Under the pieces are notes generated by a model, which did no database searches, was not told where the DNA came from, and saw only the letters and a program-made list of their open reading frames with translations. A DNA stretch of 64,000 nt, taken from the NCBI RefSeq assembly GCF_000385925.1, contig NC_021175.1, positions 1,962,213-2,026,212 of the forward strand, written 5' to 3'. The DNA comes from Streptococcus cristatus AS 1.3089. Its GTDB lineage: Bacteria; Bacillota; Bacilli; Lactobacillales; Streptococcaceae. Both the position numbers and the translations under genes were made by a program. This document shows, piece after piece, positions 4,095-62,252 of the stretch (position 1 is the stretch's first letter; every line of letters starts with the position of its first letter).

Positions 4095-4269
4095 GAGGCT
4101 GGGACAAAAGTCCTAGCCTCTCAATTGTCTTTGGATTATCGAGCAAGACGCAGTGGTTGAGTGGGCTCTATTACGCTGATTTCATCAGCTTTTACAGCCC
4201 TACTCAACTGTGCGGAGGTGGGACAACGAAATCGAACTCTAACGAATTACCGATTTCTGTCCCACTCTC
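4095..4269 (+). repeat. 175-bp interspersed stem-loop repeat, copy 1
   Basis: A full copy reading GAGGCTGGGAC first on the plus strand and ending CTGTCCCACTCTC. It lies between tRNA-Cys and the nusG terminator. It has the same three-hairpin structure as the other copies, with a few substitutions (ATTACGC, GACAACG). Unlike most copies it is not immediately behind a protein stop codon. Confidence 0.95.
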
Positions 4270-4364
4270 TTTTTGTTTGTCTTTTTTACGTCATTGGTCA
4301 AGTTTAATGAATTGCAAAGATGCCAGAAGCACCAGTCTTTATCTAAGATCTCAGCGTTGCTAAC

Positions 4365-4395
4365 AAAAAAGAAGCGGAAAATGCTTTCCGACTCC
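4365..4395 (-). terminator. terminator of nusG
   Basis: Read on the minus strand, the arms GGAGTCGGAAA and TTTCCGCTTC form a stem (4371-4395) followed by six T (plus-strand A at 4365-4370). It lies 19 bp beyond the nusG stop. Confidence 0.85.
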
Positions 4396-4413
4396 TTTTC
4401 ATGCATTCAAAAA

Positions 4414-4950
4414 TTATAATTCAGCAATTTGGCTGAGGTTGACTTCGGCAACCGTGTCATTTCCAAACATAGAGATAATCATCTTGACCTTATTATTGTC
4501 AATTTCCGTGATTTTACCAGTATAGTTAGCGAAGGCACCGTCAATGATGCGAACTGTATCGCCTACTTTGACATTCAAGTCAAATTCTTGAACCGTTTGT
4601 CCCATAGAAATGAGGATGTTACGGATTTCTTCCTCCAAGAGCGGAGTTGGTTTCGAACGGTTTCCGTGTGAGCCCACAAATCCAGTTACGTTTGGTGTAT
4701 TCCGCACGACAAACCAAGCTTCGTCCGTCATGACCATCTCAACCAATACATAACCTGGGAAGCGGTTTTCTTCGACTTCCTTGCTCTTGCCGTTTTTCTC
4801 AACTTGCACGGTCTGAGTCGGAATTTCCACGCGCAGGATATTTTCCAGCATATTATAGGTCTGAGCACGTTGCAAGAGATTTTCCTTTACCTTATTTTCA
4901 TAGCCTGAATAGGTTTGCAATACAAACCAGCCTTTATCAAAACTGTCCAT
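4414..4950 (-). CDS. nusG: transcription termination/antitermination factor NusG
   Basis: Modulates RNA polymerase pausing and couples transcription with translation. At 178 residues it has a normal length. The N-terminal NGN domain (WFVLQTYSGYENKVKENL) and the C-terminal KOW domain (VGDTVRIIDGAFANYTGKI, about 127-145) are both visible. It lies downstream of rpmG and secE on the same strand, as in other streptococci. Here, however, a 175-bp repeat and a separate -10 (5006-5011) sit between secE and nusG, so nusG probably has its own promoter. It has its own terminator. Confidence 0.97.
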   Translation of the reverse strand: MDSFDKGWFVLQTYSGYENKVKENLLQRAQTYNMLENILRVEIPTQTVQVEKNGKSKEVEENRFPGYVLVEMVMTDEAWFVVRNTPNVTGFVGSHGNRSKPTPLLEEEIRNILISMGQTVQEFDLNVKVGDTVRIIDGAFANYTGKITEIDNNKVKMIISMFGNDTVAEVNLSQIAEL

Positions 4951-4969
4951 GTTTTGTCCTTTCCTAAAT

Positions 4970-5011
4970 AAAAAAGCCTAGGGCTTCTGCTTGATATCTA
5001 GCCTTATTATA
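4970..5011 (-). promoter_or_regulatory. nusG promoter and short leader hairpin
   Basis: On the minus strand an extended -10 (TGG-TATAAT, -10 at 5006-5011) has only weak -35 candidates. Downstream, AAGCC-CTA-GGCTT followed by a T-run (4970-4985) makes a small hairpin just ahead of the ribosome binding site, which could act as a weak attenuator. The stem is only 5 bp, so that role is tentative. Confidence 0.5.
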
Positions 5012-5062
5012 CCATAAAATCTAAAATTACAAAGCATTTTGGTAAATATTTTACAGACAAAT

Positions 5063-5237
5063 GAGAGTGGGACAGAAATCGGTAATTCGTTAGAATTTGA
5101 TTTCGTCGTCCCACCTCCGCACAGTTGAGTAGGGCTGTAAAAGCTGATGAAATCAGCCTAGTAGAGCCCACTCAACCACTGCGTCTTGCTCGACAATACA
5201 TAGATAATTGAGAGGCTAGGACTTTTGTCCCAGCCTC
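5063..5237 (-). repeat. 175-bp interspersed stem-loop repeat, copy 2
   Basis: A full copy in inverted orientation relative to copy 1 (starts GAGAGTGGGAC on plus, ends CCCAGCCTC). It lies 7 bp beyond the secE stop codon, between secE and the nusG promoter, splitting a transcription unit that is usually compact. Confidence 0.95.
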
Positions 5238-5244
5238 ATCTTTC

Positions 5245-5424
5245 TTATGAAAACATATTGATTATGCGGAAGAGACCGCTAGCAACTACCTTATCAAAAA
5301 TGTAGATTAGCACAACAAAGAATGCTGTGTATTCCATTACGGAAAGGAAATCAGTCCATCTTTCTTTACGGGTAGGCCAAGTTGTATCTCTCAATAATCC
5401 AAAAACATCTTTAATGAATCTCAC
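5245..5424 (-). CDS. secE: preprotein translocase subunit SecE
   Basis: The small essential subunit that clamps SecY in the Sec translocon. The frame encodes 59 residues from a GTG start at 5422-5424 (VRFIKDVFGLLRDTTWPTR...) to TAA. The conserved cytoplasmic amphipathic segment with TTWPTRKE (about 14-21) is followed by a single TM helix (about 33-45). The GTG start is supported by GGAGA seven bases upstream, inside the 9-bp gap to rpmG. The protein is easily missed because it is short and starts with GTG. Gene context (rpmG-secE-nusG) makes the call secure. Confidence 0.95.
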   Translation of the reverse strand: MRFIKDVFGLLRDTTWPTRKERWTDFLSVMEYTAFFVVLIYIFDKVVASGLFRIINMFS

Positions 5425-5433
5425 AACTGTCTC

Positions 5434-5586: not shown

Positions 5587-5646
5587 GACGCCTCCATTCC
5601 TCTTATTATAGCAGTTTTCTGCTTCTTTGACAAGCTGTTTAGCAGA

Positions 5647-9208: not shown

Positions 9209-9383
9209 GAGGGTGGGACAGAAATCGGTAATTCGTTAGAATTCGATTTCGTCGTCCCACCTCCGCACAGTTGAGTAGGGCTGTAAAAGCTGATGAAATC
9301 AGCCTAGTAGAGCCCACTCAACCACTGCGTCTTGCTCGACAATCCAAAGACAATTGAGAGGCTAGGACTTTTGTCCCAGCCTC
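9209..9383 (-). repeat. 175-bp interspersed stem-loop repeat, copy 3
   Basis: A full copy in the copy-2 orientation. Its CCCAGCCTC end is 6 bp beyond the natural ackA stop (9390-9392). The terminal hairpin reads into TTTTGATT on the plus strand, so it could act as a terminator in that direction. Confidence 0.95.
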
Positions 9384-9389
9384 TTTTGA

Positions 9390-17269: not shown

Positions 17270-17444
17270 GAGTCTGGGACAAAAGTCCTAGCCTCTCAAT
17301 TGTCTTTGGATTGTCGAGCAAGACGCAGTGGTTGAGTGGGCTCTACTAAGCTGATTACATCAGCTTTTACAGCCCTACTCAACTGTGCGGAGGTGGGACG
17401 ACGAAATCGAATTCTAACGAATTACCGATTTCTGCCCCACTCTC
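17270..17444 (+). repeat. 175-bp interspersed stem-loop repeat, copy 4
   Basis: A full copy in the copy-1 orientation, with GAGTCTGGGAC at its left end and CTGCCCCACTCTC at its right end. It lies 6 bp beyond the stop of the 75-residue gene at 17451 and upstream of the CapA-like gene. Read on the minus strand, its last hairpin runs into CTTTTTT, making a good terminator. Confidence 0.95.
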
Positions 17445-38390: not shown

Positions 38391-38565
38391 GAGGCTGGAA
38401 CAAAAGTCCTAGCCTCTCAATTGTCTTTGGATTGTCAAGCAAGACGCAGGGGTTGAGTGGGCTCTACTGCGCTGATTTCATCAGCTTTTACAGCCCTACT
38501 CAACTGTGCGGAGGTGGGACGACGAAATCGAATTCTAACGAATTACCGATTTCTATCTCACTCTC
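38391..38565 (+). repeat. 175-bp interspersed stem-loop repeat, copy 5
   Basis: A full copy in the copy-1 orientation. Its right end (TATCTCACTCTC, diverged from TGTCCCACTCTC) is 1 bp beyond the cls stop codon. Read on the minus strand, the other end gives a strong hairpin plus TTTTTTCTG, so it can terminate cls. Confidence 0.95.
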
Positions 38566-42274: not shown

Positions 42275-42449
42275 GAGGCTGGGACAAAAGTCCTAGCCTC
42301 TCAATTGTCTTTGGATTGTCGAGCAAGACGCAGTGGTTGAGTGGGCTCTACTACGCTGATTTCATCAGCTTTTACAGCCCTACTCAACTGTGCGGAGGTG
42401 GGACGACGAAATCGAATTCTAACGAATTACCAATTTCTGTCCCACTCTC
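42275..42449 (+). repeat. 175-bp interspersed stem-loop repeat, copy 6 (reference copy)
   Basis: This copy shows the structure clearly. Hairpin 1 (42275-42300) has arms GAGGCTGGGAC and GTCCTAGCCTC around AAAA. Hairpin 2 (42336-42388) has GTTGAGT/ACTCAAC outside and GCTGA/TCAGC inside. Hairpin 3 (42395-42449) has GAGGTGGGAC with GTCCCACTC outside and GAAATCG/CGATTTC inside. Its right end overlaps the yrzB stop codon by two bases. Confidence 0.97.
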
Positions 42450-44875: not shown

Positions 44876-45050
44876 GAGGCTGGGACAAAAGTCCTAGCCT
44901 CTCAATTGTCTTTGGATTGTCGAGCAAGACGCAGTGGTTGAGTGAGCTCTATTACGCTGATTTCATCAGTTTTTACAGCCCTACTCAACTGTGCGGAGGT
45001 GGGACGACGAAATCAAATTCTATCGAATTACCGATTTCTGTCACACTCTC
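44876..45050 (+). repeat. 175-bp interspersed stem-loop repeat, copy 7
   Basis: A full copy in the copy-1 orientation with several private substitutions (GAGTGAGCTC, TATCGAATT, GTCACACTC). Its right end lies 13 bp beyond the spx stop. Read on the minus strand, the far hairpin is followed by TTTTCCTATTTTC. Confidence 0.95.
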
Positions 45051-46696: not shown

Positions 46697-46753
46697 TTAT
46701 TTCTCCTGTTTTTTCTAAAATGTCTTTTGGCCATCTGTTCATTATACCAAAAA

Positions 46754-48010: not shown

Positions 48011-48027
48011 AGAACCTCCTACCTTAC

Positions 48028-48035
48028 TATTCGGA
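48028..48035 (-). promoter_or_regulatory. ComX CIN box of cinA-recA
   Basis: TCCGAATA on the minus strand matches TACGAATA at 7 of 8 positions. The 14 bp between box and ribosome site (GTAAGGT...AGGAGG) are nearly the same as upstream of comYA, supporting common late-competence control. Confidence 0.88.
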
Positions 48036-48100
48036 ATTGGCTTTATTTTATCACAAAAAAGAGTAAAAAAGTTGATTTTCATGTCTGGAAATAAAAAGAG

Positions 48101-48142
48101 CTGTCAACTTTATTGACAAAGTTGTCAACATCCTGTGGATAA
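48101..48142. promoter_or_regulatory. alternating inverted half-sites and a DnaA-box match between cinA and the XRE gene
   Basis: CTGTCAA, TTGACAA (48113-48119) and TTGTCAA (48122-48128) alternate in orientation; the last two form a perfect 7-2-7 palindrome. Six bp further lies TGTGGATAA (48134-48142), the exact complement of the DnaA box TTATCCACA. It lies in the divergent promoter region and may be the operator of the adjacent XRE regulator. Confidence 0.45.
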
Positions 48143-48195
48143 CTTTTGAAATTCTGTTTGTTATGGAGAATAACTGCCTTGTTAGGCAGATGCTA

Positions 48196-48224
48196 TTGGC
48201 AAAGGAGACTTTTCTTTTTATAAT
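48196..48224 (+). promoter_or_regulatory. promoter of the XRE-membrane protein gene
   Basis: TTGGCA (48196-48201) and TATAAT (48219-48224) have a 17-bp spacer. They lie 56 bp before the ATG at 48280. Confidence 0.8.
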
Positions 48225-48279
48225 AAAAATGAAAAGGATGGAAAGAAAAATTATTTATGTTATTAGAAAGGGAATCATC

Positions 48280-48690
48280 ATGAAAATCTCTCAAGTTCTC
48301 AAAGACATTCGTCAACAACATCAACTCACTCAGGAAGCCTTAGCAGAAAGACTCAAGGTTTCCCGCTCCGCCATTGCCCGCTGGGAAAGCGAAAAAGGTA
48401 TCCCTGATATTGGAAATCTCATCGCTATCAGTCGGGAGTTTGATATCAGCCTGGACACACTCATCAAGGAGGATGGGCGCTTGGAGAAAAAGGTTATCGA
48501 AGACAGTAAGGCTAAGAAATGGCATTATTTAGTCATTCTCTACCTTTTTTCCATCTTGGTTTATATTGGTGTCTTTGCTTACTTGCACCATATCTTTATG
48601 GCTGGCTTCCTCGTCTCTACCCTCTTCATGCTTTTTTACGAGCTACGCATCTTTATCAAGGAAAAGATTTGGATGCAGAAAGAGGAATAA
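48280..48690 (+). CDS. XRE-family regulator with C-terminal membrane helices
   Basis: 136 residues from the ATG at 48280 (GAAAGG upstream). An N-terminal Cro/CI-type helix-turn-helix (about 5-60: LTQEALAERLKVSRSAIARWE) is fused to two TM helices (about 81-100 and 104-122) and a short basic tail. The architecture suggests a membrane-tethered DNA-binding regulator. Target genes are unknown; the inverted repeats upstream are a candidate autoregulatory site. It is the only plus-strand gene in this minus-strand block and shares a bidirectional terminator with the acetyltransferase gene. Confidence 0.85.
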   Translation: MKISQVLKDIRQQHQLTQEALAERLKVSRSAIARWESEKGIPDIGNLIAISREFDISLDTLIKEDGRLEKKVIEDSKAKKWHYLVILYLFSILVYIGVFAYLHHIFMAGFLVSTLFMLFYELRIFIKEKIWMQKEE

Positions 48691-48711
48691 GAATATTCAC
48701 AGGCTATAGAA

Positions 48712-48742
48712 AAAGCCTAGACAAGATATTTGTCTAGGTTTC
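48712..48742. terminator. bidirectional terminator between XRE and acetyltransferase genes
   Basis: The AAGCCTAGACAA and TTGTCTAGGTTT arms have a 5-nt loop and A/T-rich flanks on both sides. The TAG stop of the minus-strand gene (48734-48736) lies inside the stem. Confidence 0.8.
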
Positions 48743-49291
48743 TTTCTCGTCATTTTTTAACTTACTTTCATAGCGGAGACGGATGGTCGGCTCTCCGCGA
48801 AGGCTCAATCCCGCCTTTTCCCACATCAGGGTCATCCCAATTTTTTCTAAAACTCCTTGACTAGCAAGATTAGGCTTAGTCGTGTGGGCAAGAAATATCT
48901 TTACCCCCGGCATGTTCTGAGCCAATTCTTTCAAGGCTAAGGCTGCTTCAGTTGCGTAGCCTTTTCTATGATAGTTAGCATTGACAGTATAGCCTATTTC
49001 CGCCGTTTCTTGTTCCGTATCTATTCGAAGAGAGATATTACCAATTAATTTGCCTTCAGATTTTAACTCAATACCGTAGCGACCCAAAGGAGCGCTTAAA
49101 TTATATAAAACAAGACTCTCTCGGCTCTCTTCTATGCTTTGGTGCTCTGGATAATCATATTTTAATAATTCTCCATCTGAAGTATATTCATGATAATCCA
49201 ACAAATCATCCATAGTCATGGGACGTAGGAGGAGACGCTCCGTCTCCAAGATACGATTCTCCGCTAAATATACTAAGGCTTTATTATCCAT
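48734..49291 (-). CDS. GNAT acetyltransferase, RimJ/RimL type
   Basis: 185 residues. The RimJ/RimL-like start is LETERLLLRPMTMDDLLDYHEY, with the acetyl-CoA-binding NANYHRKGYATEAALAL segment and a C-terminal NLASQGVLEKIGM element characteristic of protein N-terminal or small-molecule acetyltransferases. The substrate is unknown. It is minus-strand, convergent with the XRE gene, whose terminator includes this gene's stop codon. Confidence 0.88.
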   Translation of the reverse strand: MDNKALVYLAENRILETERLLLRPMTMDDLLDYHEYTSDGELLKYDYPEHQSIEESRESLVLYNLSAPLGRYGIELKSEGKLIGNISLRIDTEQETAEIGYTVNANYHRKGYATEAALALKELAQNMPGVKIFLAHTTKPNLASQGVLEKIGMTLMWEKAGLSLRGEPTIRLRYESKLKNDEKET

Positions 49292-49362
49292 CCTTCATTT
49301 CCTTTCTGAATAATCTTAAAAATGACTAAATCACAATATCTTCTTTTTATTGACTTAGCAGT

Positions 49363-50022
49363 CTACTGGCTTATTGAAAAAATTGTAATCACAAAAGCAA
49401 TGATATTATTGCAACAATGAAGGGCAATTGGATACCAGATATTTTTGTCCTTTCTCAGATACAGGAGCGAGAGAAGAAGACCTCCGGCAATATAGGAAAT
49501 AGCTGTCACCCACTCTGATAAGTCCCAGCTGTGCATATGAAGGGTGGCAAATAGAAAGGTTGTTAAGACAATACCGAGCCCGTCAGAGAATTTTGCCAAG
49601 AAGCTGCCTAGGAAAAAGCGACGGAAGAAAAACTCTTCAACGATTGGCCCAATAAAGCAGCCGATAAGCAAGATTAGAAAGGGATTTTTCAACAAGGCAC
49701 CTTGAATATTGGCTTCATTCTGTCCCTGCAGTGGCAAGTCCAGACTATACTTGATGAAGGCTGAAAGAAAGTTGCAGGCAATGGACAGGAGGAAAACAAA
49801 GACCATATACAAGGAAATCGTTTTTAGAAATTCCTTCTTTTTAGTCAGAATCAAGGCTAGCTGCTCCTTTAATTCTTCCCGATAAGCTAAGATTCCCAAA
49901 ATAAATAAAAGGAAATAAACTGGGTAAATCAACCAATTTATCCCAAGCAGTTCCAAGCCTCTACCTAAAAAGAAGATTGTATAGAGGGTGATAAAAATAA
50001 GGAGAAATTTTCTTGTTTTCAT
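49363..50022 (-). CDS. CPBP family intramembrane metalloprotease
   Basis: 219 residues from the ATG at 50022 (GGAAG 8 bp upstream, located inside the end of tag). It has about seven hydrophobic segments and the CPBP/Abi motifs: EEFFFRRFF (EExxxR), FATLHMHSW and the C-terminal HCCNN. Relatives process membrane substrates such as CAAX proteins or protect against self-made bacteriocins. No bacteriocin gene is adjacent. It is 4 bp from tag, probably one operon ruvA-tag-CPBP. Confidence 0.87.
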   Translation of the reverse strand: MKTRKFLLIFITLYTIFFLGRGLELLGINWLIYPVYFLLFILGILAYREELKEQLALILTKKKEFLKTISLYMVFVFLLSIACNFLSAFIKYSLDLPLQGQNEANIQGALLKNPFLILLIGCFIGPIVEEFFFRRFFLGSFLAKFSDGLGIVLTTFLFATLHMHSWDLSEWVTAISYIAGGLLLSLLYLRKDKNIWYPIALHCCNNIIAFVITIFSISQ

Positions 50023-50026
50023 TGTT

Positions 50027-50581
50027 CTACTTCCAATCACAATCATTTTCATGGTCATTGATAAGGCCAGCTGCTTCTAGGAATGAATAGGCACAAACTG
50101 GACCGACAAATTTGAAGCCCTGCTTTTTCAGCGCCTTGGACATAGTTTCTGACAACTCTGTCTTAGTAGGTGCTTCCTTGTAGTTCGTAATTTGATTGTC
50201 AATCGTTTTGAAATCAACAAAGGACCAGACAAAGTCATTAAAAGAGCTAAACTGCTTTTGAACAGCCAAAAAAGCTTGGGCATTGGCCCTGGTCGCATAG
50301 ATTTTCATCTTATTACGGACGATATTAGGATTATCCAAAAGAGCATCCAAGTCTGCATCCGTCATTTGGGCAATTTTCTGGGCGTCATAGAAATGAAAAG
50401 CTTCTCGAAAAGCTTGACGCTTATTGAGAATGGTCTCCCAAGAAAGCCCAGCCTGATAGGTCTCCATGCAGAGCAGTTCAAATAATTTCTGATCATCATG
50501 GAGAGGTTTGCCCCACTCCTCATCATGGTAGGCTACATACAAGAGGTTGTTCATCTTTACCCAGCCACAGCGTTTTGTCAT
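50027..50581 (-). CDS. tag: DNA-3-methyladenine glycosylase I
   Basis: A base-excision repair enzyme removing 3-methyladenine. 184 residues, the normal size. Zinc-snap and active-site residues are visible: CGWVKMNNLLYVAYHDEEWG at the N-terminus and FVGPVCAYSFLEAAGLINDH at the C-terminus with the conserved Cys/His ligands. It lies 9 bp downstream of ruvA and 4 bp upstream of the protease gene. The mutL-ruvA-tag order is typical of streptococci, though here mutL and ruvA are separated by an inserted plus-strand gene pair. Confidence 0.95.
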   Translation of the reverse strand: MTKRCGWVKMNNLLYVAYHDEEWGKPLHDDQKLFELLCMETYQAGLSWETILNKRQAFREAFHFYDAQKIAQMTDADLDALLDNPNIVRNKMKIYATRANAQAFLAVQKQFSSFNDFVWSFVDFKTIDNQITNYKEAPTKTELSETMSKALKKQGFKFVGPVCAYSFLEAAGLINDHENDCDWK

Positions 50582-50590
50582 ATCTTCCTC

Positions 50591-51181
50591 CTATTTCACC
50601 AACATCTTAAGGGCAGACTTGATATAGTTTTCTGCTGTATCCGTTGTTCCTTCAAAGAATTTCTTGATTTTCTTGAGCTCAGCAGCTTTGTAGCCTAAAG
50701 CCAGCATAGCTTCCATGGCTTCCTCTAGCTCCTGATTATCCACAGTCCGGACGGGCGCCTTGCTTTCTGTCGGACCATCCGCCGCCACTACCTTGCCTTC
50801 TAAGTCCAGCACCATCTGCTGGGCTGTCTTCTTGCCAATCTTAGGAAACTTGGTCAGGTAGGTGATGTTTTTCTGCTCAATGGCTTGTACCAAGCCAGCA
50901 TTATCATCAGCCGCAATAATAGCCAGGGCAGACACTGGGCCAATACCTGAGACTGAAATCAAGTTGAGAAAAAGTTGCTTCTCCTCCTCGGTTGCAAAAC
51001 CATATAAGAGTTCCGCATCTTCTCTTACCACCTGGTGAACATAGACCTTAGCTTCCTGATGGAGATGTCCTGAGTAAGCATAAGGGTTGGCCACATGAAG
51101 AATATATCCGATAGAGTTGACTTCCAATACAATATATTTAGCTGTAATTTTGCTGATGATTCCTTTAAAATATTCGTACAT
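50591..51181 (-). CDS. ruvA: Holliday junction branch migration protein RuvA
   Basis: 196 residues from the ATG at 51181 ([20 protein letters not shown]). OB-fold domain I, two helix-hairpin-helix motifs ([31 protein letters not shown]) and the mobile C-terminal domain III ([20 protein letters not shown]) that contacts RuvB. A weak AAGAAGG site precedes the start. The upstream open frame lacks one. First gene of ruvA-tag. Confidence 0.96.
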
Positions 51182-51266
51182 AATCTTCCTTCTTTTTATA
51201 TCATTTTGCCTATCTAGTATATCATATTTTGAGTCTGGAAACTGCAAATAGAAGTGCAACCGGTAG

Positions 51267-51295
51267 TTGACAAAATGTACAGGAAGCTGTATTCT
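51267..51295 (+). promoter_or_regulatory. promoter of the XRE-RDD gene pair
   Basis: TTGACA (51267-51272) and TATTCT (51290-51295) have a 17-bp spacer. They lie 55 bp before the ATG, divergent from ruvA. Confidence 0.65.
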
Positions 51296-51350
51296 CAAGA
51301 TGACTAAAAGCTGTTAGGATAGAGTTAGCAAAGAAAAGGAGGCCGTCACG

Positions 51351-51857
51351 ATGAAACTCGCTGATAAATTATTTGAACTAAGAAAAGAAAAAGGCTGGTC
51401 ACAAGAAAAACTGGCTGAACAAATCAATGTCTCTCGCCAGAGCATTTCCAAGTGGGAATCTGGCCAAGCGCTGCCAGAGCTGGAAAAAATTGTAGAACTG
51501 AGCAAGATTTTCCAGGTGACGACAGATTATCTGCTTTTAGAAGACAGCGACAAGCCGGAAATAAAACCCATCCTCTCAGAAGACGAAAAAGACCGCTACT
51601 ATAAGCAAGTAAAATCTTATGGCTTCTGGCATATTTTGTATATTCTTGTATCAGCCTTGGCTATTTATCTCTTTTCCGCAGGTTCTATCTTTCCAGCAAA
51701 ATTCACTGCCCTAGTCTGGCTAACTTTTTTCCTCCTAGTCGCATCAGCAATGGCTATTAACAAGGCGCTAAAGATTAAGGAAAAGTATCTGGACAAGGTT
51801 ATCGGCTTTGATGAGGATTCTAAGAAAGAAGGTGCTAAAGATGAAACTAAAAACTGA
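51351..51857 (+). CDS. XRE-family regulator with C-terminal membrane domain
   Basis: 168 residues. Helix-turn-helix (about 4-60; [19 protein letters not shown]), linker, two TM helices (about 95-111 and 118-135), and a charged tail. The ATG follows AAAGGAGG with ideal spacing. It overlaps the start of the RDD gene by 17 bp, so the two are co-expressed. Same architecture as the XRE-TM protein at 48280 and common in Firmicute small regulator/membrane-protein pairs. Function unknown. Confidence 0.87.
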
Positions 51858-52416
51858 TAATTCCTTACCTGTCAAAACGCGTCTGAAAGAACTCTTTGAC
51901 GACTGGCTCTTTATCTCAGGCTACCTCATTGCTCTTTTTTTACTAGCTATAGGCTTTTACAATCTAGTTCTAGGAGGCATTCCTGCATTCACTGAAGCTC
52001 AGAGCCAACTTCTGGATTTTTCTACCTCAGTCCTTCCTCTATCTATCATCTTTGCTTGGTTAGACTATAGAAAAGGAAGTTTTGGCAAGCGTTGGGCAGG
52101 TTTACAGTTGGTTTACAAGCATAGGAGCCTTGCTCACAGCCTTTTGCGCTCTGCTATCAAGTTTTTCCCTTGGCAGCTGGGACATATGGGAGCTATCCGT
52201 AGTGCTTATCAAGCAGATACCCTGTCAATTTTCTTGTCAACATCAGCAGGGATTCTCTTCTTGATCTTTCTGCTGATGGGACTGCTCCGCAAGGACAAAC
52301 GTCATCCAGCTGATTTGCTTGCTGGAACACAAGTTCAGCTTAACAATTCAAAACGAGGCTGGGACAAAAGTCCTAGCCTCTCAATTGTTTTTGGATTGTC
52401 GAGCAAGACGCAGTGA
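51841..52416 (+). CDS. RDD family membrane protein with a repeat-encoded C-terminus
   Basis: 191 residues from the ATG at 51841 (AAGAAGG upstream). RDD domain: TM segments at about 25-47, 58-76 and 131-151, with [13 protein letters not shown] and [13 protein letters not shown] matching the family. The last ~22 residues ([20 protein letters not shown]) are encoded by repeat copy 8, which starts at 52355 and has replaced the original 3' end; the stop is created by TGG to TGA within the repeat. The authentic protein probably ended near VQLNN. Co-transcribed with the XRE gene. Transport role suggested for RDD proteins is unproven here. Confidence 0.85.
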
Positions 52417-52529
52417 TTGAGTGGGCTCTACTACGCTGATTTCATCAGTTTTTACAGCCCTACTCAACTGTGCGGAGGTGGCACGACGAAATCGAATTCT
52501 AACGAATTACCGATTTCTGTCCCACTCTC
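52355..52529 (+). repeat. 175-bp interspersed stem-loop repeat, copy 8
   Basis: A full copy in the copy-1 orientation, inserted into the 3' end of the RDD gene and ending 19 bp beyond the mutL stop. Differences from other copies include CAGTGATTGAG for CAGTGGTTGAG, which makes the RDD stop codon, and GTGGCACGACG. Confidence 0.96.
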
Positions 52530-52548
52530 GTTTGATCTTCTATACAGT

Positions 52549-54495
52549 TTAGTATTTCCCTAACTCCCGCAGGCTAGTGTGATTTTCCTGAATACGGCGG
52601 AACATTTTTTCCATATCCGACTTGGTAAAGTTGACCAAGACCGGCCGGCCGTGTGGGCAGTTATAGGGATTGTCACACTGGGACAGCTGAAAGAGCAAGT
52701 CACGCGCAGAGTAGTCATCCAGACTGTGATTGGCCTTGATGGAGCGTTTGCAGCTCATCATAATGGCCAGCTCTGCCCGATATTTCTTGATGGAAACTTC
52801 CTTGGTCAGGAGAAGCATATCACACATTTCATAGATGCCGGCTTCAATCTCCTCTTCCTTGAACCAAATGGGATGCTCGCGGAGGATAAACTGATTGGCT
52901 CCGTACTCTTCTAAAAAGATGCCAGCATCTTCTAACAACTCCATCCGCTGCTTGATTCGCAACATATCATCCGCTGGAAATTCAAAGATATGAGGTACTA
53001 AGAGCTGCTGCTGGCTATTGTCCACATCCCCAATCTTCTCCCGATAATACTCATACTTGACTCGCTCTTGGGCGGCATGTTGGTCAATAATGTAAAGACC
53101 GCCCTTGCCCTGAGCAAAGAGATAGGTACCATGCATCTGGCCGAAATATTCTAACTCTGGGAAGCTTGACTTCTCTTCTTGTTCCAACTTATCCACAGCC
53201 CGCTCCAGACTAGCCTGATCTAGCTCTGGATGGTCTAGTTGGTCATGGCTGGCAGGCTTTCTCTCTGCAAATTTGACCGAAGTCGATTGTGGCAGTTCTG
53301 CTTTTTCATCTGTCGCTTCATGGACAGGCTCCGCTGATTCTTCAAAGAATAGCTGCTGCTCAGCCACCTGCGGCTTGAGGAAGAAATCATTCTGCTCCCT
53401 ATCGTAGTAGAGGCGATTTTCTTTCAGCGGAAGACTGGTCTGTTCGGGCTTAGTCGCACGCTTAACAGTTGATTTGGCTAGATTTTCCAAAGCATCCGGA
53501 ATCAGGTCTTGCTCCTTGAGACTAGTCGCAATGGCTTGTGAAATCAAGGTCATGAGTTCCCGCTCTTTAGAAATCCGCACCTCTTGCTTGGTCGGATGGA
53601 CATTGACATCGGCCAGATAGGGGTCAATCTGAATATTGATGACCGCTAGTGGAAAGCGGCCTACCATAAGCTTGCTGCCGTAGCCATCCAAAATAGCACG
53701 ATTGAGCAGGAAATTCTTGATATAACGGCCGTTGATGAGAATCGTAATATAATTACGATTTGCCCGAGTCAGCTCAGGCAGACTGACATAGCCGCTCACT
53801 TCAAAATCCAGATCTGAAGCAGAGATTTCCACCATTTTCTTGGCTGTTGCCAGACCATAGATACCCGCAATAGCCTGACGCAGATTGCCACTGCCGGCAG
53901 TCCGTGTCATTTCGCGGCCGTCACTGATAAGGGTGAAAGCCACTTCCGGATGGGCCAGACTAAGCCGATTAATCACATCAACAATATGGGACAGCTCAGC
54001 CTGCTGGCTCTTCATATACTTGAGCCGGGCTGGAGTATTGAAGAAGAGATCTTCTATCTTGATTTTCGTTCCTACCGGACTGCTGGTCGGCTCATGCTCT
54101 TCAATCTCACCGCCTTGGGCAACTAGTAGAGTCCCATGCTGGCCAGATTCAGTCGCTGTTTCAATGGTAAAACGTGAGACAGAAGCAATGGAAGGAATGG
54201 CCTCACCACGAAAACCCAGCGTCCGAATCCGAAAGAGATCCGCTTGCTTCTTGATTTTACTGGTAGCATGGCGTCGAAGGGCCAGAGGGACATCTTGGTG
54301 GTCAATGCCCTCGCCATTATCCGTCACCTGAATGCTCTTGAGTCCAGCTTCTTCGATTTCGATCGTAATCTGACTGGCACCCGCATCAATTGAGTTCTCC
54401 ACTAGCTCCTTGACCACGCTGCTAGGCCGTTCAATGACTTCACCGGCCGCAATCTGATTGGCTAGAATTTCTGGAAGTTCGATAATTTTTGACAT
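52549..54495 (-). CDS. mutL: DNA mismatch repair protein MutL (HexB)
   Basis: The GHKL ATPase that links MutS to downstream repair. 648 residues. N-terminal ATP-binding motifs: [27 protein letters not shown] and [10 protein letters not shown]. The C-terminal dimerisation domain has [11 protein letters not shown] with the endonuclease-type metal region partly changed; the distal CPHGRPV is present. A long acidic linker (about 370-450) separates them. In streptococci mutL (hexB) usually sits beside ruvA; here an XRE-RDD pair and repeat copy 8 intervene. Confidence 0.97.
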
Positions 54496-54569
54496 CTTGT
54501 TCTCCGTATTTGTTCTGCTATCTATTATAACACATTGGGCTCTTTCTAGCAGAAGGCAGCCTTTTCTTG

Positions 54570-54659
54570 ACCATTCTGTCCGTCAGCCAAACCATATAGA
54601 CACAAATAGCTGCCACATGGACAAAAGGGCTTGTTTTCTCTGCTTGGTTGCGGTTTAAT
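54570..54659 (+). promoter_or_regulatory. LytTR-type direct repeat and promoter of the LytTR-DUF3021 operon
   Basis: ACCATTCTG (54570-54578) and ACCATATAG (54591-54598/9) are repeated with a 21-bp period (9-mer plus 12-bp spacer), the geometry of LytTR-domain sites in streptococci. About 32 bp downstream lies a promoter, TTGTTT (54631-54636) and TTTAAT (54654-54659), 17-bp spacer. An autoregulatory site for the downstream regulator is inferred. Confidence 0.55.
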
Positions 54660-54679
54660 AAAGGTGAAAGGAGGAAGTT

Positions 54680-55120
54680 ATGAAAGTTAAGCTAAGAATC
54701 GATTCTCAAGTCTCAGAAGACTCTATCAGCATTGAGGCCCGCCTCATGACAGAAAGCATTCAGGAACTGGTCCACTTTGCTCAAGATCTAGGCAAAGTGG
54801 ACAAGATTCATGTCAAGAAAGAAGATGAAATCTATCTGCTGGACACTAAGGAAATCCACCGAATCTACACAGAAAATCGTCAGGTTCGGGTCCGAACAGC
54901 AAAAGACAGCTATCGAGCTCAACAAGCTCTTTATCAGTTGCTGCAGATCCTGCCGGACTATTTTCTGCAGATTTCTCAATCGGAGATTATCAACAGTCTA
55001 CAAATCAGCCATCTCAAGCTGACTCCAAATGGTCTGATTCAAATATTTCTGAAAAACGGCGACCAGACTTACTCGTCCCGCCGTTATCTCAAATCTATCA
55101 AAGAAAGGTTGCAATTATGA
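54680..55120 (+). CDS. LytTR-domain DNA-binding regulator
   Basis: 146 residues: an N-terminal ~45-residue region, then a stand-alone LytTR domain (VDKIHVKKEDEIYLLDTKEI ... FLQISQSEIINSLQISHLKL ... SRRYLKSIKERL). No receiver domain, so it is not a two-component regulator. The ATG follows AAAGGAGG. Its stop overlaps the start of the DUF3021 gene (ATGA). This gene pair matches LytTR regulatory systems such as HdrRM/BrsRM of S. mutans, where the membrane partner holds the regulator inactive. Confidence 0.9.
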   Translation: MKVKLRIDSQVSEDSISIEARLMTESIQELVHFAQDLGKVDKIHVKKEDEIYLLDTKEIHRIYTENRQVRVRTAKDSYRAQQALYQLLQILPDYFLQISQSEIINSLQISHLKLTPNGLIQIFLKNGDQTYSSRRYLKSIKERLQL

Positions 55121-55587
55121 AAACTCGTCTTAAAGAACTCTTTTTCGGAGGAATTGGAGGGATTTTTATCGGTCTCTTCTTATCCATGATTGTTTCTTAT
55201 TTTTACAATCCAGCTTATCTACCGCTGCACCCTGACTCGCCTATCGGCCACTTCTTTTTGAGCCAGCATGTCCATGTTTCCCTCATCATGCTCTACTGCA
55301 TGCTTATCTGGTTTATCATGGGAGCTATTTTCAGATGGAGCGGAAGCTTCTTCCAAAGAGACTGGAGCATCCTGCGCTCCATCGTCAGCCACTATGGTGT
55401 GATGATTCTGACCTTTGCACTTTTGGCAAATCTAGCCGGATTTTTCCCAAGAGAAAAAATACTCAGCCTGACACTGACTGCCGTTGGGGAATTCACCCTC
55501 ATTTATCTGATTATTTCAGGAATCATCTACTACCGCACCTACCGCAACATTCAAAAAATCAATAGCGGCTTGTCTAGCAAATCGTGA
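55117..55587 (+). CDS. DUF3021 membrane protein (partner of the LytTR regulator)
   Basis: A 156-residue polytopic protein with four TM helices (about 10-30, 49-70, 85-108, 113-137) and a C-terminal basic tail; DUF3021 family. It overlaps the LytTR gene by 4 bp (ATGA), signifying translational coupling. By analogy with S. mutans LytTR systems it probably restrains the LytTR protein at the membrane. The signal is unknown. Repeat copy 9 begins 14 bp after its stop. Confidence 0.88.
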   Translation: MKTRLKELFFGGIGGIFIGLFLSMIVSYFYNPAYLPLHPDSPIGHFFLSQHVHVSLIMLYCMLIWFIMGAIFRWSGSFFQRDWSILRSIVSHYGVMILTFALLANLAGFFPREKILSLTLTAVGEFTLIYLIISGIIYYRTYRNIQKINSGLSSKS

Positions 55588-55601
55588 GAAACACAAAGAG
55601 C

Positions 55602-55776
55602 GAGAGTGGGACAGAAATCGGTAATTCGTTAGAATTCGATTTCGTCGTCCCACCTCCGCACAGTTGAGTAGGGCTGTAAAAGCTGATGAAATCAGCCTAG
55701 TAGAGCCCACTCAACCACTGCGTCTTGCTCGACAATCCAAAGACAATTGAGAGGCTAGGACTTTTGTCCCAGCCTC
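55602..55776 (-). repeat. 175-bp interspersed stem-loop repeat, copy 9
   Basis: A full copy in the copy-2 orientation, filling the 195-bp gap between the convergent DUF3021 and mutS genes: 14 bp after one stop and 6 bp after the other. It probably provides the terminator for at least one of them. Confidence 0.96.
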
Positions 55777-55782
55777 TTGTTC

Positions 55783-58332
55783 TTACAGCTTTTTCTTGAG
55801 CTCGGCTACCGCCGCCATGACTTCCAGGGGAGTCATATTATAGATGTCCAAGTCTCGGAGTTCAGTTAGGACTGGATTTTCCGGTCCTTCTGCGAAAAGA
55901 GACATCTGCTCAGCCACTTGTGACTGCTTCGGTCTGGATGCAGCAGGAAGCTCTGAGCCTAGTCCAGTGTCCTGACTCTCCAAATGACTCAAAATGTTAT
56001 CCGCCCGCTCTAGTAATTTCTCAGGAAGTCCGGCAATCTTCGCCACATGAATTCCGTAGGACTTGTCAGCCGGACCCGGCTCAATCTTATGCAGGAAAGT
56101 CACCTGCCCGTCCTTTTCCAAGGTTGCCACATGGACATTTTCCAAATGCTCCAAGCTATTCTCTAAGGCTGTCAGCTCGTGATAGTGGGTAGCAAAGAGG
56201 GTTTTGGCCCCAGTATAGTGATGAATATGCTCGATAATAGCCTGAGCCAAGGCCATCCCATCGTAAGTAGCCGTCCCACGGCCCAGCTCATCAAAGAGAA
56301 TGAGCGAACGCTCGCTGGCCTGTCGAATGGCCCGATTGGCCTCCATCATCTCCACCATAAAGGTGGACTGGCCGGACACCAAATCATCCGCTGCACCGAT
56401 GCGAGTGAAAATCGCGTCGAATAGTGGCAGACTGGCAGACTGAGCGGGCACATAAGATCCCATCTGTGCCATGATGACGATGATTGCCAGCTGGCGCATA
56501 TAAGTCGATTTCCCGCTCATATTAGGCCCAGTAATCAGCTGGATGTCTGTTTCCTGATCCAGCAGAATACTATTTGGAATGTAGCTTTGGGCACCCATGA
56601 CCTTTTCTACGACAGGATGGCGGCCTTTTTCAATCTGCAGACGGCGCTCCGCAGTAAAGACAGGGCGCACCAAATGCTGCTGTTCTGCCACCGCAGCAAA
56701 GCTCTGCAGGACATCCACAGCTGCCAGCGTTTGTGCCAAGGCCTGCAAGCGCTGGATATATTTGCCAACTTCCTCGCGAATCCGCATGAAAATCTCGTAT
56801 TCCAAGTTGGCAGATTTTTCACGCGCCTCCAACATCTCTCCCTCAATTCGGGCCAGCTCCTCCGTTCCGAAACGCTCCGAATTTTTCAGGGTCGCCTTGC
56901 GGAAGAAATGACTGGGCACATGAGCCAGCTGGGAATTGGTCACGTGGAAATAGTAACCATCTTTTTTGTTGTAATCAATCTTTAGATTGCTGATGCCGCT
57001 GTTGGCACGTTCTTTGACTTCCAGCTCTGCAATCCAGCCGGTCCCCTCCCTCAGCACAAGTCGATACTGATCCAAAGTCTCATCAAAACCGGTCCGAATG
57101 ATATTGCCCTCGGTGATGACATGGGGCGCATCCGGTGAAATAGCTGAGCTAATCAAGCCCGCCAACTCTGGAATAGGATCCAAGCCCTCAATCAAAGGCA
57201 CTAGATGCGGGCTGCCAATCCCTTGCAGAATAGCCTTAATCTGAGGCACATTGCCCAGGGTAGCTGCCAGCTGCAGCAGATCCTTGGGATTGGTCTTACC
57301 AAAAGAAACTCGACTAGCCAGCCGCTCGATATCATAGACTCCCTTGAGGCTCTCCGTCAAATCACTCCGCTCAAAGAAATGATCCAGAAAAACCTCGACG
57401 ACATTCTGCCGCTGGATAATTCGCGCTTCATCAATCAGCGGACGCTGAATCCAAGAGCGCAGCATACGTCCGCCCATGGCCGTCTTGGTCTCGTCCATCA
57501 GCCAATAAAGACTGCCGTGCTTCTTGCCTGAGCGAGCATTTTCCGTCAAATCCAGACTCGCCTTAGTAGCATAATCCATTTGCAGAAAGTCCTTGATTTC
57601 ATAATGCTGAACCTTCTTCAAATGGCTGAGCTCCCTCATCTGGGTCCGGTGCACGTACTCCAGCAGTTTCCCCGCTGCCTGACGTTCCATCGGAGACAGC
57701 TCCTCGTCCAGCAACTGGACATCGTCCAAGGCTGTCTGTACATAGGACAGTAAAAGGTTCATCTGTCCAGCCAAGACCTGCTCCTCACCTTCTGGCAAGG
57801 CATAGCCCAGCACCACTTCCCTAGCTTTCAAATTGCGGATTTCCCCGCAGACCAAGGCAAAGTCCTCTAAACTAGTCACCTGAAACTCACCAGTCACCAA
57901 GTCCATATAAGCTAGACCATAGAGACCATCTGAGTAATCCAGAGCCACCAGAAAGTTATTAGCAGAGTCGGGCTTATTGGAGTCCACCACCGTCCCCGGC
58001 GTGATAACCTGAACGACCTCCCGCTTAACAACTCCCTTGGCTTCCTTGGGATCTTCCATCTGCTCCGCAATCGCTACCTTATAGCCTGATTCGACCAAAA
58101 CATCAATATACTGCTGTGCCGAATGATAGGGAACTCCAGCCATGGGAACAGGATTTTCTGCATTTTTATTTCGGCTGGTGAGAGAAATCTCTAAAATCTG
58201 GGCGGCATTGACCGCATCATCATAAAACAACTCATAGAAATCTCCCATCCTAAAGAGCAGAAAAGCATCTGGATAGTCCTTTTTGATATCCAAATACTGC
58301 TGCATACCGGGTGATAATTTTTCTGCTGCCAT
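55783..58332 (-). CDS. mutS: DNA mismatch repair protein MutS (HexA)
   Basis: The mismatch-binding ATPase. 849 residues from the ATG at 58332 (AAAGGA 6 bp upstream). The mismatch-contact motif FYELFYDDA (F-x-E) is near the N-terminus (RMGDFYELF), Walker [11 protein letters not shown] in the C-terminal third, Walker [12 protein letters not shown] and ATHYHEL. The C-terminal tail is complete. It lies 72 bp downstream of argR on the same strand, a conserved argR-mutS order in streptococci. Confidence 0.98.
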
Positions 58333-58404
58333 TTTTATCCTTTCTAAAAACAAACGAGGTCAGGACTTCCGTCTCAAACCTCTCCGTCAATTCTAAGCTT
58401 TTGG

Positions 58405-60659: not shown

Positions 60660-60667
60660 CCCTACAC

Positions 60668-60690
60668 AAACCTTCCAGTTTTGGGAGGTT
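60668..60690 (+). terminator. terminator of argS
   Basis: AACCTTCC and GGGAGGTT arms around AGTTTT followed by TTCTT. It begins about 9 bp beyond the argS stop and leads into the small membrane-protein gene, so it may be partial. Confidence 0.55.
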
Positions 60691-60710
60691 TTCTTAGGAA
60701 GAGATATTTT

Positions 60711-60974
60711 ATGAATGAAACTGCTTATATTTTAGTTGTCCTTAGCTTGGTCATTCTCTTTTTATACAACAAAAGAGAAAAGGTAAAGTTGCAGATTTTG
60801 CTGCAGCAGGAACTCCTAAAAAGTGATCATTTTCGACAAGCACTCCAAGAAAAAATGGCCACTAGTGAAAATCAAAATGACCTTATTGCTTACGTTAACA
60901 AAAACTACCGTTTAGGAATTTTATATTCAAAAGAGCTGGTCGAAACTATCGCCGGCGAGCAAGCAAAACAATAA
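60711..60974 (+). CDS. small single-pass membrane protein (87 aa)
   Basis: 87 residues from the ATG at 60711 (AGGAAGAG upstream). One N-terminal TM (about 5-22, YILVVLSLVILFLYN) followed by a charged cytoplasmic helical domain (KVKLQILLQQELLKSDHFRQ...). No recognised domain. It may be co-transcribed with argS through a weak terminator. A strong terminator follows. The call as a real gene rests on the ribosome site, codon usage and protein-like composition. Confidence 0.7.
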   Translation: MNETAYILVVLSLVILFLYNKREKVKLQILLQQELLKSDHFRQALQEKMATSENQNDLIAYVNKNYRLGILYSKELVETIAGEQAKQ

Positions 60975-60981
60975 TACAAGC

Positions 60982-61023
60982 AAAAGCCGCTCGATCAACA
61001 ACTGTTGACTGAACGGCTTTTTT
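60982..61023. terminator. bidirectional terminator, small membrane protein / nrdI
   Basis: AAAAGCCG (60982-60989) pairs with CGGCTTTT (61014-61021); inside, TCAACA and TGTTGA make a second stem. T-run on plus, A-run giving T on minus. Serves both convergent genes. Confidence 0.85.
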
Positions 61024-61025
61024 AT

Positions 61026-61487
61026 TTATTCTTTTATTTCATACAATTCTTCAATAATGCCAGCGACCTTTTTGATATCACCCAACATGCCACGCATTTC
61101 AAAATCAGCTAAAACTGGGAAACCGAAACGTTGGCTGTACTGCTTAGCGGTCAGACAGTATTGATTGTTAAAATTACGGTTGCCACTTCCGACAACTCCA
61201 AAACACTTGCTAGCATTTTGCCCATAGGCAATAAAATCGGCTACATCCGTCGTGAGAATTTCGACATCCCCATTATCCAGACCATTGCCACCTTCCAGAT
61301 AGGTCGGTAAAAAGGCGATGAAAGGGTTGGTCATTTCAAAGAAAGGTCGCCCCTCTTTAACCAAATCTTTGATGTGGATTTTTTCAATCTCTAGACTGGG
61401 ATGCTGCTCTAACAAATAATCACTCAAACGACGGACAAAACTCTCTGTATTGCCGCTCAAGCTGATATAGACTAAGGAAACTCTCAT
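61026..61487 (-). CDS. nrdI: NrdI-like flavodoxin
   Basis: A 153-residue flavoprotein of the NrdI family, which activates the manganese class Ib ribonucleotide reductase. The FMN phosphate loop is YISLSGNTESFVRRL, and the NrdI motif VVGSGNRNFNNQYCLTA (about 98-114) is clear. It is isolated: no nrdE, nrdF or nrdH lies nearby in this window. Streptococci often have more than one NrdI, so this may be the stand-alone paralogue. Confidence 0.88.
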   Translation of the reverse strand: MRVSLVYISLSGNTESFVRRLSDYLLEQHPSLEIEKIHIKDLVKEGRPFFEMTNPFIAFLPTYLEGGNGLDNGDVEILTTDVADFIAYGQNASKCFGVVGSGNRNFNNQYCLTAKQYSQRFGFPVLADFEMRGMLGDIKKVAGIIEELYEIKE

Positions 61488-61560
61488 ACTTGCTCCATTC
61501 TAAAAAATAACATTTATCTGCCCATCTAGATTGTAGCAGGTAAATGTTATTTGTCAAATC

Positions 61561-62079
61561 TTATTCTTCTTCAGCTACTTCTCCAGTCTCAGCTTCCTTT
61601 TGCTGCTTGATAAGCTTGAAGACAACGATAGAAAGGAAGATGAGGCTAAGAACGACGGAGAAGCCGACGCTCATATTCAGCCCCAGCATCTGAGACGATA
61701 GTAATGTTGGATCTGAAAAGGAAGAAGCTGCAATTCCTTTAGCTGCAACATAACTATAGGCTGTCCCAATCAGTCCAATGAGAATATCAGTAATGTAAAT
61801 AAGATTTGCTTTAAAGATGTCTTTCTTAAAAACGAAGAACCAAGCTGCTATCAAAAGAAGCAGGCTAGCATAAAAGAAAACATTACTTATTAGCGAACCT
61901 GACAGTTCAGCACTCTTGCTAAAATAAGTTGCATACTGAGATTTTACTGGCTCTTCCATGCCTTTAAGCAAGGATTCCACTGCATCATTAGAAGAGGAGA
62001 ACTTCGACACAAGCCCCCATAAGCTGCCAGCCGTTGCTAACCCCAGTAAGACGTAGAGATAAATCGGTTTCTTTTTCAT
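61561..62079 (-). CDS. uncharacterised four-helix membrane protein
   Basis: 172 residues from the ATG at 62079 (AGGAGG upstream). TM segments at about 7-24, 60-80, 86-106 and 130-152, with a ~35-residue extracytoplasmic loop after the first and an acidic C-terminal tail (EAETGEVAEEE). No recognised domain. The ATGATG start leaves two possible initiators 3 bp apart. It lies between nrdI and repeat copy 10. Confidence 0.75.
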   Translation of the reverse strand: MKKKPIYLYVLLGLATAGSLWGLVSKFSSSNDAVESLLKGMEEPVKSQYATYFSKSAELSGSLISNVFFYASLLLLIAAWFFVFKKDIFKANLIYITDILIGLIGTAYSYVAAKGIAASSFSDPTLLSSQMLGLNMSVGFSVVLSLIFLSIVVFKLIKQQKEAETGEVAEEE

Positions 62080-62175
62080 CATAACCTCCTGTATAGAAAT
62101 ACTTTTTCCTATTATACACCCAAAAGGAGAGCCTGACAAGAGGGAAGATCTGATGCGATCCTAAAGCCAGTATTG

Positions 62176-62252
62176 GTAGAGTCCACTCAACCACTGCGTC
62201 TTGCTCGACAATCCAAAGATAATTGAGAGGCTAGGACTTTTGTCCTAGCCTC
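62176..62252 (-). repeat. 175-bp interspersed stem-loop repeat, copy 10 (truncated to 77 bp)
   Basis: Only the hairpin-1 side remains (GTAGAGTCCACTCAACC ... TCCTAGCCTC), in the copy-2 orientation; the other 98 bp are missing. The retained hairpin is perfect (CTAGGAC/GTCCTAG) and runs into TTTT. Its end is 19 bp from the glgP stop. Confidence 0.93.

Follow-up and report, generated by a model that had tools for sequence, protein, structure and literature searches.

The window analyzed here, a 64-kb stretch of the Streptococcus cristatus AS 1.3089 genome, carries nine copies of a 175-bp repeat together with one 77-bp piece, lying exactly where the original prediction had placed them and in the orientations it had given, six forward and four reverse. 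The forward copies occupy 4095..4269 (36 bp past a tRNA gene at 3988-4058), 17270..17444, 38391..38565, 42275..42449, 44876..45050, and 52355..52529; the reverse copies occupy 5063..5237, 9209..9383, and 55602..55776, with the truncated one, also reverse (element positions 1-77), at 62176..62252. Pairwise identity among the nine full-length copies is 93.7-99.4%. We found no IS1182-type gene in the window and no transposase among the 17 window open reading frames scanned, so that the earlier statement that no transposase is present holds for IS1182-type genes and for those frames. Against Rfam 15 (gathering score), the window gave tRNA only, and the element had no match.

Hairpin structure, abundance, and spread

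When folded singly, each of the nine full copies keeps the three stem-loops previously proposed, with 10-11 of 11 pairs retained in hairpin 1, 22-24 of 24 in hairpin 2, and 16-21 of 21 in hairpin 3. In the copy at 42275, hairpin 1 forms the left end (42275..42300, forward strand, with the terminal repeat GAGGCTGGGACA at its start), hairpin 2 the middle (42329..42393, forward), and hairpin 3 the right end (42394..42449, forward, with the terminal repeat TGTCCCACTCTC at its end). For this copy, 0/200 dinucleotide shuffles fold equally well (z of -6.3 and -8.8 for the two strands). Across diverged relatives, in an alignment of 13 rows (hairpin 1 being cut off in four of them), 17/38 pairs change on both sides, a result reached by 0/500 shuffles; the stems of hairpin 2 are among those that covary. 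Within the genome itself the picture is different. Among 128 stem substitutions in the 69 copies of exactly 175 bp (18 of the 87 near-full copies, of other lengths, were excluded), there is no compensating double change; 46 keep the pair versus ~32.5 expected, and 82 break it. The paired changes that had been claimed are thus borne out between relatives but not among the copies of one genome. Rare substitutions per site per copy, in the same 69 copies, amount to 0.007-0.011 in stems; the spacer shows 0.016 and the hairpin 3 loops 0.018, though the hairpin 1 and hairpin 2 loops are low as well (0.004 and 0.012). Together, these comparisons show a three-hairpin design in which hairpins 2 and 3 are conserved with covariation, although the selection could act on hairpins at the DNA level instead of on RNA.

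Matches to a 54-bp core with up to three mismatches number 115 in the 2.14-Mb genome, against none for the reversed pattern. This corresponds to about one per 18.6 kb, and therefore the window is locally rich: the predicted genome-wide abundance is real, but the "hundreds" of copies extrapolated from the window are unsupported by the core count. The exact 175-bp length is kept by 69/87 near-full copies, and G+C content is ~0.49. At the level of the genus, a match to the element occurs in 203/284 Streptococcus genomes and, by our own tally, a near-identical one (E up to 1e-69) in 85/284. Two S. sanguinis-type genomes have best copies that share 98% identity with those of S. cristatus, whereas over a 7.2-kb stretch of the window identity is only 87-92%, which points to spread. 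With a covariance model, the three-hairpin design was also retrieved from another genus, which is probably Staphylococcus.

Insertion sites and their empty relatives

The original prediction had proposed searching for empty sites in relatives and for flanking target-site duplications; empty sites exist, and duplications are absent wherever an orthologous empty relative could be compared. After setting aside 5 of 38 pieces (short or below 90% identity), we tested 33 copies, three of which had no orthologous flank. An empty orthologue was found for 15/33, corresponding to nine distinct sites, seven of them clean and two on diverged flanks. At all nine, the segment replaced by the element contains a terminator-like stem-loop in the empty relative, and, taking one representative per site, folds this good turn up in only 0-8 of 1000 random windows (in at most 22/1000 for other alignments of the site at 55602). 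At filled sites this hairpin is lost, and its A-rich and T-rich flanks are retained. The absence of a target-site duplication follows from the replacement of the target hairpin itself. Empty relatives show a 23-bp terminator-like hairpin at the site of the 42275 copy, a hairpin at that of the 44876 copy, and one at the intact end of the truncated copy; at 52355 the inner 24 bp of the hairpin have been replaced, with the outer AAAC/GTTT stem still present on each side, and at 55602 the replaced hairpin persists in S. sanguinis relatives. A nested case was seen in a further genome (G254), where the 16-bp apical hairpin of hairpin 2 has given way to a 285-bp insert with element-like ends, with a flank identity of 71/72 on each side. 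The alignments show that, at the sites compared, a hairpin has been replaced and no target sequence duplicated.

Some insertions are filled in S. cristatus and absent from close relatives; others are shared. The 17270 site is also filled in G022, and the 38391 site in G022, G023, and G241. The left flank of the 4095 copy recurs adjoining a copy at locus L050 of G022, and both flanks of the 5063 copy recur enclosing a copy at locus L055 of G019.

The flanks of the 87 near-full copies are terminator-type, as judged from sequence. Frequency of A in the 5 nt to the left is 0.754 (background 0.322) and of T in the 5 nt to the right 0.674 (background 0.348). The flush residual stem in these flanks reaches 2.34 versus 1.45 in shuffled ones (sd 0.15), a value attained by 0/2000 shuffles; a looser test counting pairs in the first six positions was indistinct from shuffles (108/2000). 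At least five T within 8 nt beyond the end were found at 59 right ends and 67 left ends, at one end or more in 83 copies and at both in 43, with backgrounds of 0.13 and 0.10 per end. Convergent gene pairs host 32/87 copies versus 16/126 background gaps (p 5e-5), and divergent pairs 2/87 versus 14/126 (p 0.017). A simple terminator scan (18.5 kb) listed hairpin 1 at several copies and missed the longer hairpin 3, and was kept out of these counts.

Element ends and IS1182 transposases

Hairpin targets of this kind are known in staphylococci. IS1272 and TnSha1, both of the IS1182 family, are reported to target hairpins and remove them on insertion, and for TnSha1 several of these hairpins were mapped terminators (PMC5678879, PMC4923244); as with our element, the stem-loop target is wholly or partly lost and no target duplication arises. 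IS1272 is, however, a full insertion sequence and TnSha1 a transposon, both with a transposase, whereas the element consists of 175 bp and three hairpins in more than 100 copies. Also comparable are IS1182-family insertion sequences with GAG..TGGGACA ends (in Streptococcus, Aerococcus, Carnobacterium, and Staphylococcus equorum), which have in common with the element the left terminal sequence and the type of insertion site: the flanks of 12 copies with GAG..TGGG ends are similar (A 0.75 and T 0.72). They differ in size (~1.72 kb in Streptococcus, with a transposase of ~510 amino acids) and in having subterminal hairpins of another sequence.

The left end of the element resembles the ends of this IS1182 subgroup. 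Compared with 20 ends from 10 copies in eight genomes (5 of 15 subgroup loci were excluded, one as a duplicate and the others with an end unreadable or left out), it matches 13-18 of 18 bases (IS left ends at 14-17, the best at 18). In another IS1182 group (30 loci), used as a control, a search through 400 nt to each side gave best 18-mers matching at 10-13/18. The right end of the element stands at this control level (11-13/18). No subgroup transposase was detected in the S. cristatus genome (best match E 1.3e-5), yet it is present in other streptococci, for example in G192, which also contains element copies. For the cognate transposase with matching ends that had been proposed as a target for searching, a candidate subgroup exists outside the element's own genome, with ends similar to the left end of the element. 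The one IS1182 transposase that is intact in S. cristatus comes from a group whose ends differ; its copy (G000:C1:746640-747932, ends TCAGA..GAAGACAAA) was considered as a partner and rejected.

A proposed nonautonomous family at terminators, and alternatives

We suggest, with a probability of about 0.78, that the element is a short nonautonomous transposable family of IS1182 type which replaces terminators and supplies its own. The earlier description as nonautonomous and MITE-like is supported. Insertion would take place at the hairpin of an intrinsic terminator, replacing the stem-loop and keeping the A-rich and T-rich stretches and sometimes also the foot of the stem. Each end of the element is a hairpin abutting the retained T-tract, so that the lost bidirectional terminator would give way to two outward-facing ones, with little loss to the host. 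Presumably an IS1182-subgroup transposase moves the element, its ends would terminate transcription, and the low host cost may explain the copy number. Several results count against this account: S. cristatus lacks a subgroup transposase, the right end of the element stays at the control level, subgroup and element show no association across genomes, the looser flank test was indistinct from shuffles, and G006 and G062, with more than 100 first-look element candidates each, have no IS1182 match at E 1e-3. The account also gives hairpin 2 no role.

That a different transposase moves a structured element, the left-end likeness to IS1182 being convergent or historical, is unlikely, although several observations fit it: the control-level right end, the lack of a subgroup transposase in S. 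cristatus, and the lack of association between subgroup and element across the 284 genomes (by our tally, of the 31 genomes that match the subgroup strongly, at E up to 1e-130, 8 have a near-identical element, versus 85/284 overall). Against it stand the left-end matches (13-18/18 versus 10-13/18 in controls) and the site type common to element and insertion sequences. Moreover, three left ends of second-genus elements match the S. equorum IS1182 end at 16-17/18 and streptococcal ends at 14-15 (ISSau3 at 15), while the streptococcal left end matches three streptococcal insertion sequence ends at 17-18/18 and S. equorum at 13, in a comparison of few ends, the streptococcal ones being chosen as best. 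Somewhat less probable still is an RNA element (terminator, 3'-end stabilizer, or regulator) recruited by the host and kept for transcript structure, with mobility secondary. Covarying stems, their low substitution rates relative to the spacer (though two loops are low too), and a T-tail at one end or more in 83/87 copies would agree with this; the pair-breaking substitutions without any double change, the insertions lacking in close relatives, and the near-identity of copies across more diverged genomes, which points to spread, argue against it.

Membership in, or divergent branching from, the BOX, RUP, or SPRITE families seems highly improbable, in line, for the features compared, with the original view that the repeat is neither RUP-sized nor BOX-like. 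The size class is comparable, and intergenic location, stem-loop folds, and the extra modules of some relatives are also reminiscent of them. RUP, whose ends are of IS630-Spn1 type, measures ~107 bp and makes a target duplication; BOX, built of boxA, boxB, and boxC modules, also duplicates its target, whereas our element replaces a hairpin without duplication and has a fixed length. SPRITE has AAAA/TTTT terminal repeats and one 18-bp duplex, versus three hairpins. Overall, size, terminal repeats, duplication (BOX, RUP), and base composition (RUP, SPRITE) differ. According to the source describing these short interspersed S. pneumoniae repeats (PMC3049150), they are enriched between convergent genes, RUP and SPRITE have 27.5% and 28.1% G+C, and the three are reportedly almost absent from S. 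sanguinis.

Literature searches on streptococcal repeats, IS1182 MITEs, EFAR, and RepSU1 led to papers on IS1272, TnSha1, and BOX/RUP/SPRITE; the material covered contained no account of the element, and a text search with its sequence strings matched no paper. The EFAR repeats of Enterococcus faecalis, reportedly described by Venditti in 2007, are said to be short palindromic sequences, most of ~170 bp, with two stem-loops and variable modules, and to insert at stem-loops, deleting most of the target. Size and target are thus similar and the number of stem-loops is not (two versus three); there may be a family link.

The nonautonomous IS1182-type reading would unite hairpin-replacing transposition in staphylococci with the small repeats of streptococci, topics we found described separately, and terminator swapping would give a concrete reason why more than 100 copies do the host little harm. 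Should the other copies behave alike, one genome would hold ~100 terminator swaps made by nature, for many of which sister strains serve as controls, usable to measure the degree to which termination is conserved; it would then also become directly testable whether a DDE transposase chooses its targets by structure. More speculatively, and with considerable doubt, the element may represent a Bacilli-wide three-hairpin lineage co-evolved with IS1182 transposases, in which ends and targets are recognized as hairpins and not by sequence alone, and outer hairpins are selected as replacement terminators, the parasite gradually taking over host termination. The conserved middle hairpin would then serve as a structural signal, either in transposition or in the transcript. 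Solo left hairpins were not found in the S. cristatus genome (one pattern, 473 kb covered). The first 21-36 bp of the element do occur without the remainder in other Lactobacillales, at 89-100% identity (six contexts inspected by eye).

Copies and their empty sites

All ten copies of the 175-bp repeat lie where the original prediction had placed them, with full copies starting at 4095, 5063, 9209, 17270, 38391, 42275, 44876, 52355 and 55602 and a 77-bp piece at 62176. The nine full copies are each exactly 175 bp long, as claimed, with pairwise identities of 93.7–99.4%, and the three stem-loops are present in every one of them on folding; the copy at 42275 folds much more strongly than shuffled sequences, on either strand. 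When the whole Streptococcus cristatus genome (2,142,100 bp, one contig) was searched with a 54-bp core, allowing at most three mismatches, we found 115 matches (66 forward and 49 reverse), versus none for the reversed core pattern used as control. Copy-bearing regions of this genome, 473 kb in total, contain 94 distinct pieces: 87 are near full length and 69 of these exactly 175 bp, with a median identity of 97% to the copy at 42275. Ten copies or pieces lie in window 1–64000, versus ~3.4 expected from the genome average, and the 116 kb beyond the window hold two. The copies at 44876, 52355 and 55602 surround the RecA, CinA, MutL and MutS genes (window 45548–58353).

Comparison of filled and empty orthologous places supports a non-autonomous element that inserts by hairpin replacement. 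For 33 copies (from 38 pieces) of this genome and its relatives, 200-bp flanks were mapped onto the other sequences, 82 in total, and the orthologous place was present in at least one sequence for 30. Empty sites in relatives, which the original prediction had proposed to look for together with target-site duplications, were found for 15 of the 33 copies, and no target-site duplication was seen at the nine distinct sites that they represent: window 42275, 44876, 52355 and 55602 (55602 being represented in five other sequences too), position 2098645 of the S. cristatus genome, position 126248 of the relative G022, the loci L171 and L162, and a site common to genome G006 and locus L157. At all nine, the stretch that the empty sequence has and the filled one lacks contains a stem-loop. 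We count seven as clean, because the L162 and G006/L157 sites have diverged flanks (only 76–81% identity) and a long replaced segment (89 and 45 bp). At 52355, the hairpin of the relatives loses its inner 24 bp, and its foot, AAAC/GTTT, is left on both sides of the element; at another site, occupied in G022 and S. cristatus and empty in the relative G023, the loss is exactly one 20-bp palindrome, as it is at an S. infantis site. With one representative per site, the folding of the replaced segment was equalled by 0–8 of 1000 random windows, drawn from the same sequences at large rather than from gene ends only; in other alignments of site 55602, up to 22 of 1000 fold as well. The right junction of the copy at 55602–55776 varies among genomes at the same terminator (orthologues in G022, G023, G241, L145 and L146), a pattern that repeated insertion, or trimming, would give.

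A nested event in genome G254 (locus L301, G254:C36, versus locus L291, G254:C65) shows that a further insertion obeys the same rule: the 16-bp apical hairpin of the element is replaced exactly by a 285-bp insert whose ends are element-like and whose flanks are 71/72 identical on each side to another element copy of the same genome. Hairpin-replacing transposition is already known for IS1182 elements, and such insertion is reported for IS1272 and TnSha1 (PMC5678879, PMC4923244); the evidence supports the same insertion mode for the element.

Flanks and gene context

Across the 87 near-full S. cristatus copies, the five nucleotides to the left of the element are 75.4% A, versus 32.2% at 21–50 nt away, and the five to the right are 67.4% T, versus 34.8%. 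The two flanks are flush-complementary over 2.34 pairs on average, versus 1.45 (sd 0.15) with right flanks re-dealt, and 0 of 2000 such trials reach the observed value; a looser measure, pairs in the first six flank positions, was not distinct from re-dealt flanks in these 87 copies (108/2000). At least five T in the 8 nt after an end occur at one end or the other in 83 copies and at both in 43, with a background per end of 0.13 and 0.10. Since both element ends are hairpins adjoining a retained T-tract, we would expect, from sequence, outward termination of transcription on both sides. Such an element would carry a low host cost because of this outward termination, which could account for its copy number.

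Gene context was taken from a simple, crude ORF picker; among its ORFs, some overlap copies by >60 bp, which affects 4 of the 87. Convergent gene pairs flank 32/87 copies, versus 16/126 gaps, and divergent pairs 2/87 versus 14/126, the background being 126 gaps in 180 kb of the same genome, copy-bearing ones included. Copies lie a median of 22 bp from a 3′ gene end (n=117) and 130 bp from a 5′ gene end (n=57).

IS1182 transposases and their ends

The S. cristatus genome has a single intact IS1182-type transposase, which was rejected as a partner because its ends differ from those of the element. This intact IS1182 element (L060, G000:C1:746640-747932) is flanked on each side by the full hairpin AACCTGAATTTATTCAGGT, and it looks as if the hairpin target was here duplicated rather than replaced.

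A second streptococcal IS1182 subgroup has a transposase of ~510 aa (NF033551 at 337 bits; DDE_Tnp_1), in insertion sequences of ~1.72 kb bounded by GAGTCTGGGACAAAAGTC or variants of it. Compared with the 20 ends of ten subgroup copies from eight genomes, the left end of the element agrees at 13–18 of 18 positions, one end being identical, and the right end at only 11–13. In the control for the left end, 30 loci of the other IS1182 group, the best 18-mer within 400 nt either side scores 10–13/18; against it, only the left end stands out. Flanks of the same type (A 0.75, T 0.72) surround twelve insertion sequences with GAG..TGGG ends, two of which belong to a third group. Aerococcus, Carnobacterium, S. 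aureus (ISSau3) and plasmids of S. equorum also have named IS1182 elements with related ends; for an S. epidermidis IS1182 element (L342), a search within 600 bp turned up no matching ends.

As the cognate transposase with matching ends that the original prediction had proposed to look for, the subgroup fits at the left end and not at the right, and a search for the subgroup transposase in the S. cristatus genome found none. This absence weakens the link, as does the lack of association between the subgroup and the near-identical element over 284 genomes (8/31 subgroup genomes versus 85/284 overall); genome G192 has both. Our first choice for the mover in S. cristatus would be a matching-subgroup transposase that was lost or present only in passing.

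Conservation of the fold and distribution

The paired changes in the stems that the original prediction had described hold across relatives, where 17/38 pairs changed on both sides, and not among the S. cristatus copies, which show no double change. The underlying MAFFT alignment of 13 sequences, two from other Lactobacillales families, covers hairpins 2 and 3 (middle and right end); hairpin 1 (left end), missing from 4 of the 13 rows, lies outside the consensus. In this alignment 94.9% of cells pair, dropping to 36–45% in slid controls, and 0/500 shuffles reach any of five structure measures. The covariation indicates that pairing of the middle hairpin has been kept. With stricter filters, a covariance model of the 13 sequences matched 42/348 genomes of the class: 20 Streptococcus, 21 of one other genus (best match E 3.3e-27) and one weak match. 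The other genus is probably Staphylococcus, since this design recurs in a named S. aureus record (105.9 bits). BLAST matches from other Lactobacillales families went into the model and so are not independent of it. At three loci of other Lactobacillales (L303, L304 and L305), hairpin 1 stands alone: only the element's first 26–27 bp are present, at 100% identity. Such solo copies may represent minimal elements, or else common terminators.

Short hairpin-targeting repeats include EFAR of E. faecalis. The view that the element is neither RUP nor BOX agrees with our comparison, in which BOX, RUP and SPRITE differ from it in the features tested. Both the hairpin-replacing mode and short hairpin-targeting repeats are known; we found no description of this streptococcal element in the open-access papers searched.

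Matches at E 1e-3 or better occur in 203/284 Streptococcus genomes, and nearly full-length, nearly identical ones (E 1e-69 or better, tallied from the match table) in 85. In two S. sanguinis-type genomes (G184 and G195), the best copies are 98% identical to S. cristatus copies, versus 87–92% for a 7.2-kb window stretch; this compares the best of several copies with an average. Among named records, copies or pieces occur on contigs of S. cristatus, S. australis, S. parasanguinis and S. infantis, and a 76-bp piece on one of S. gordonii. Two Streptococcus plasmids carry matches, that of S. salivarius covering 111/175 bp. Unannotated phage-collection records (OR846595.1, OR847738.1, OR844999.1 and others), titled as Enterococcus, Listeria and Staphylococcus phages, also match window stretches or the element, and may be mislabelled chromosome pieces.
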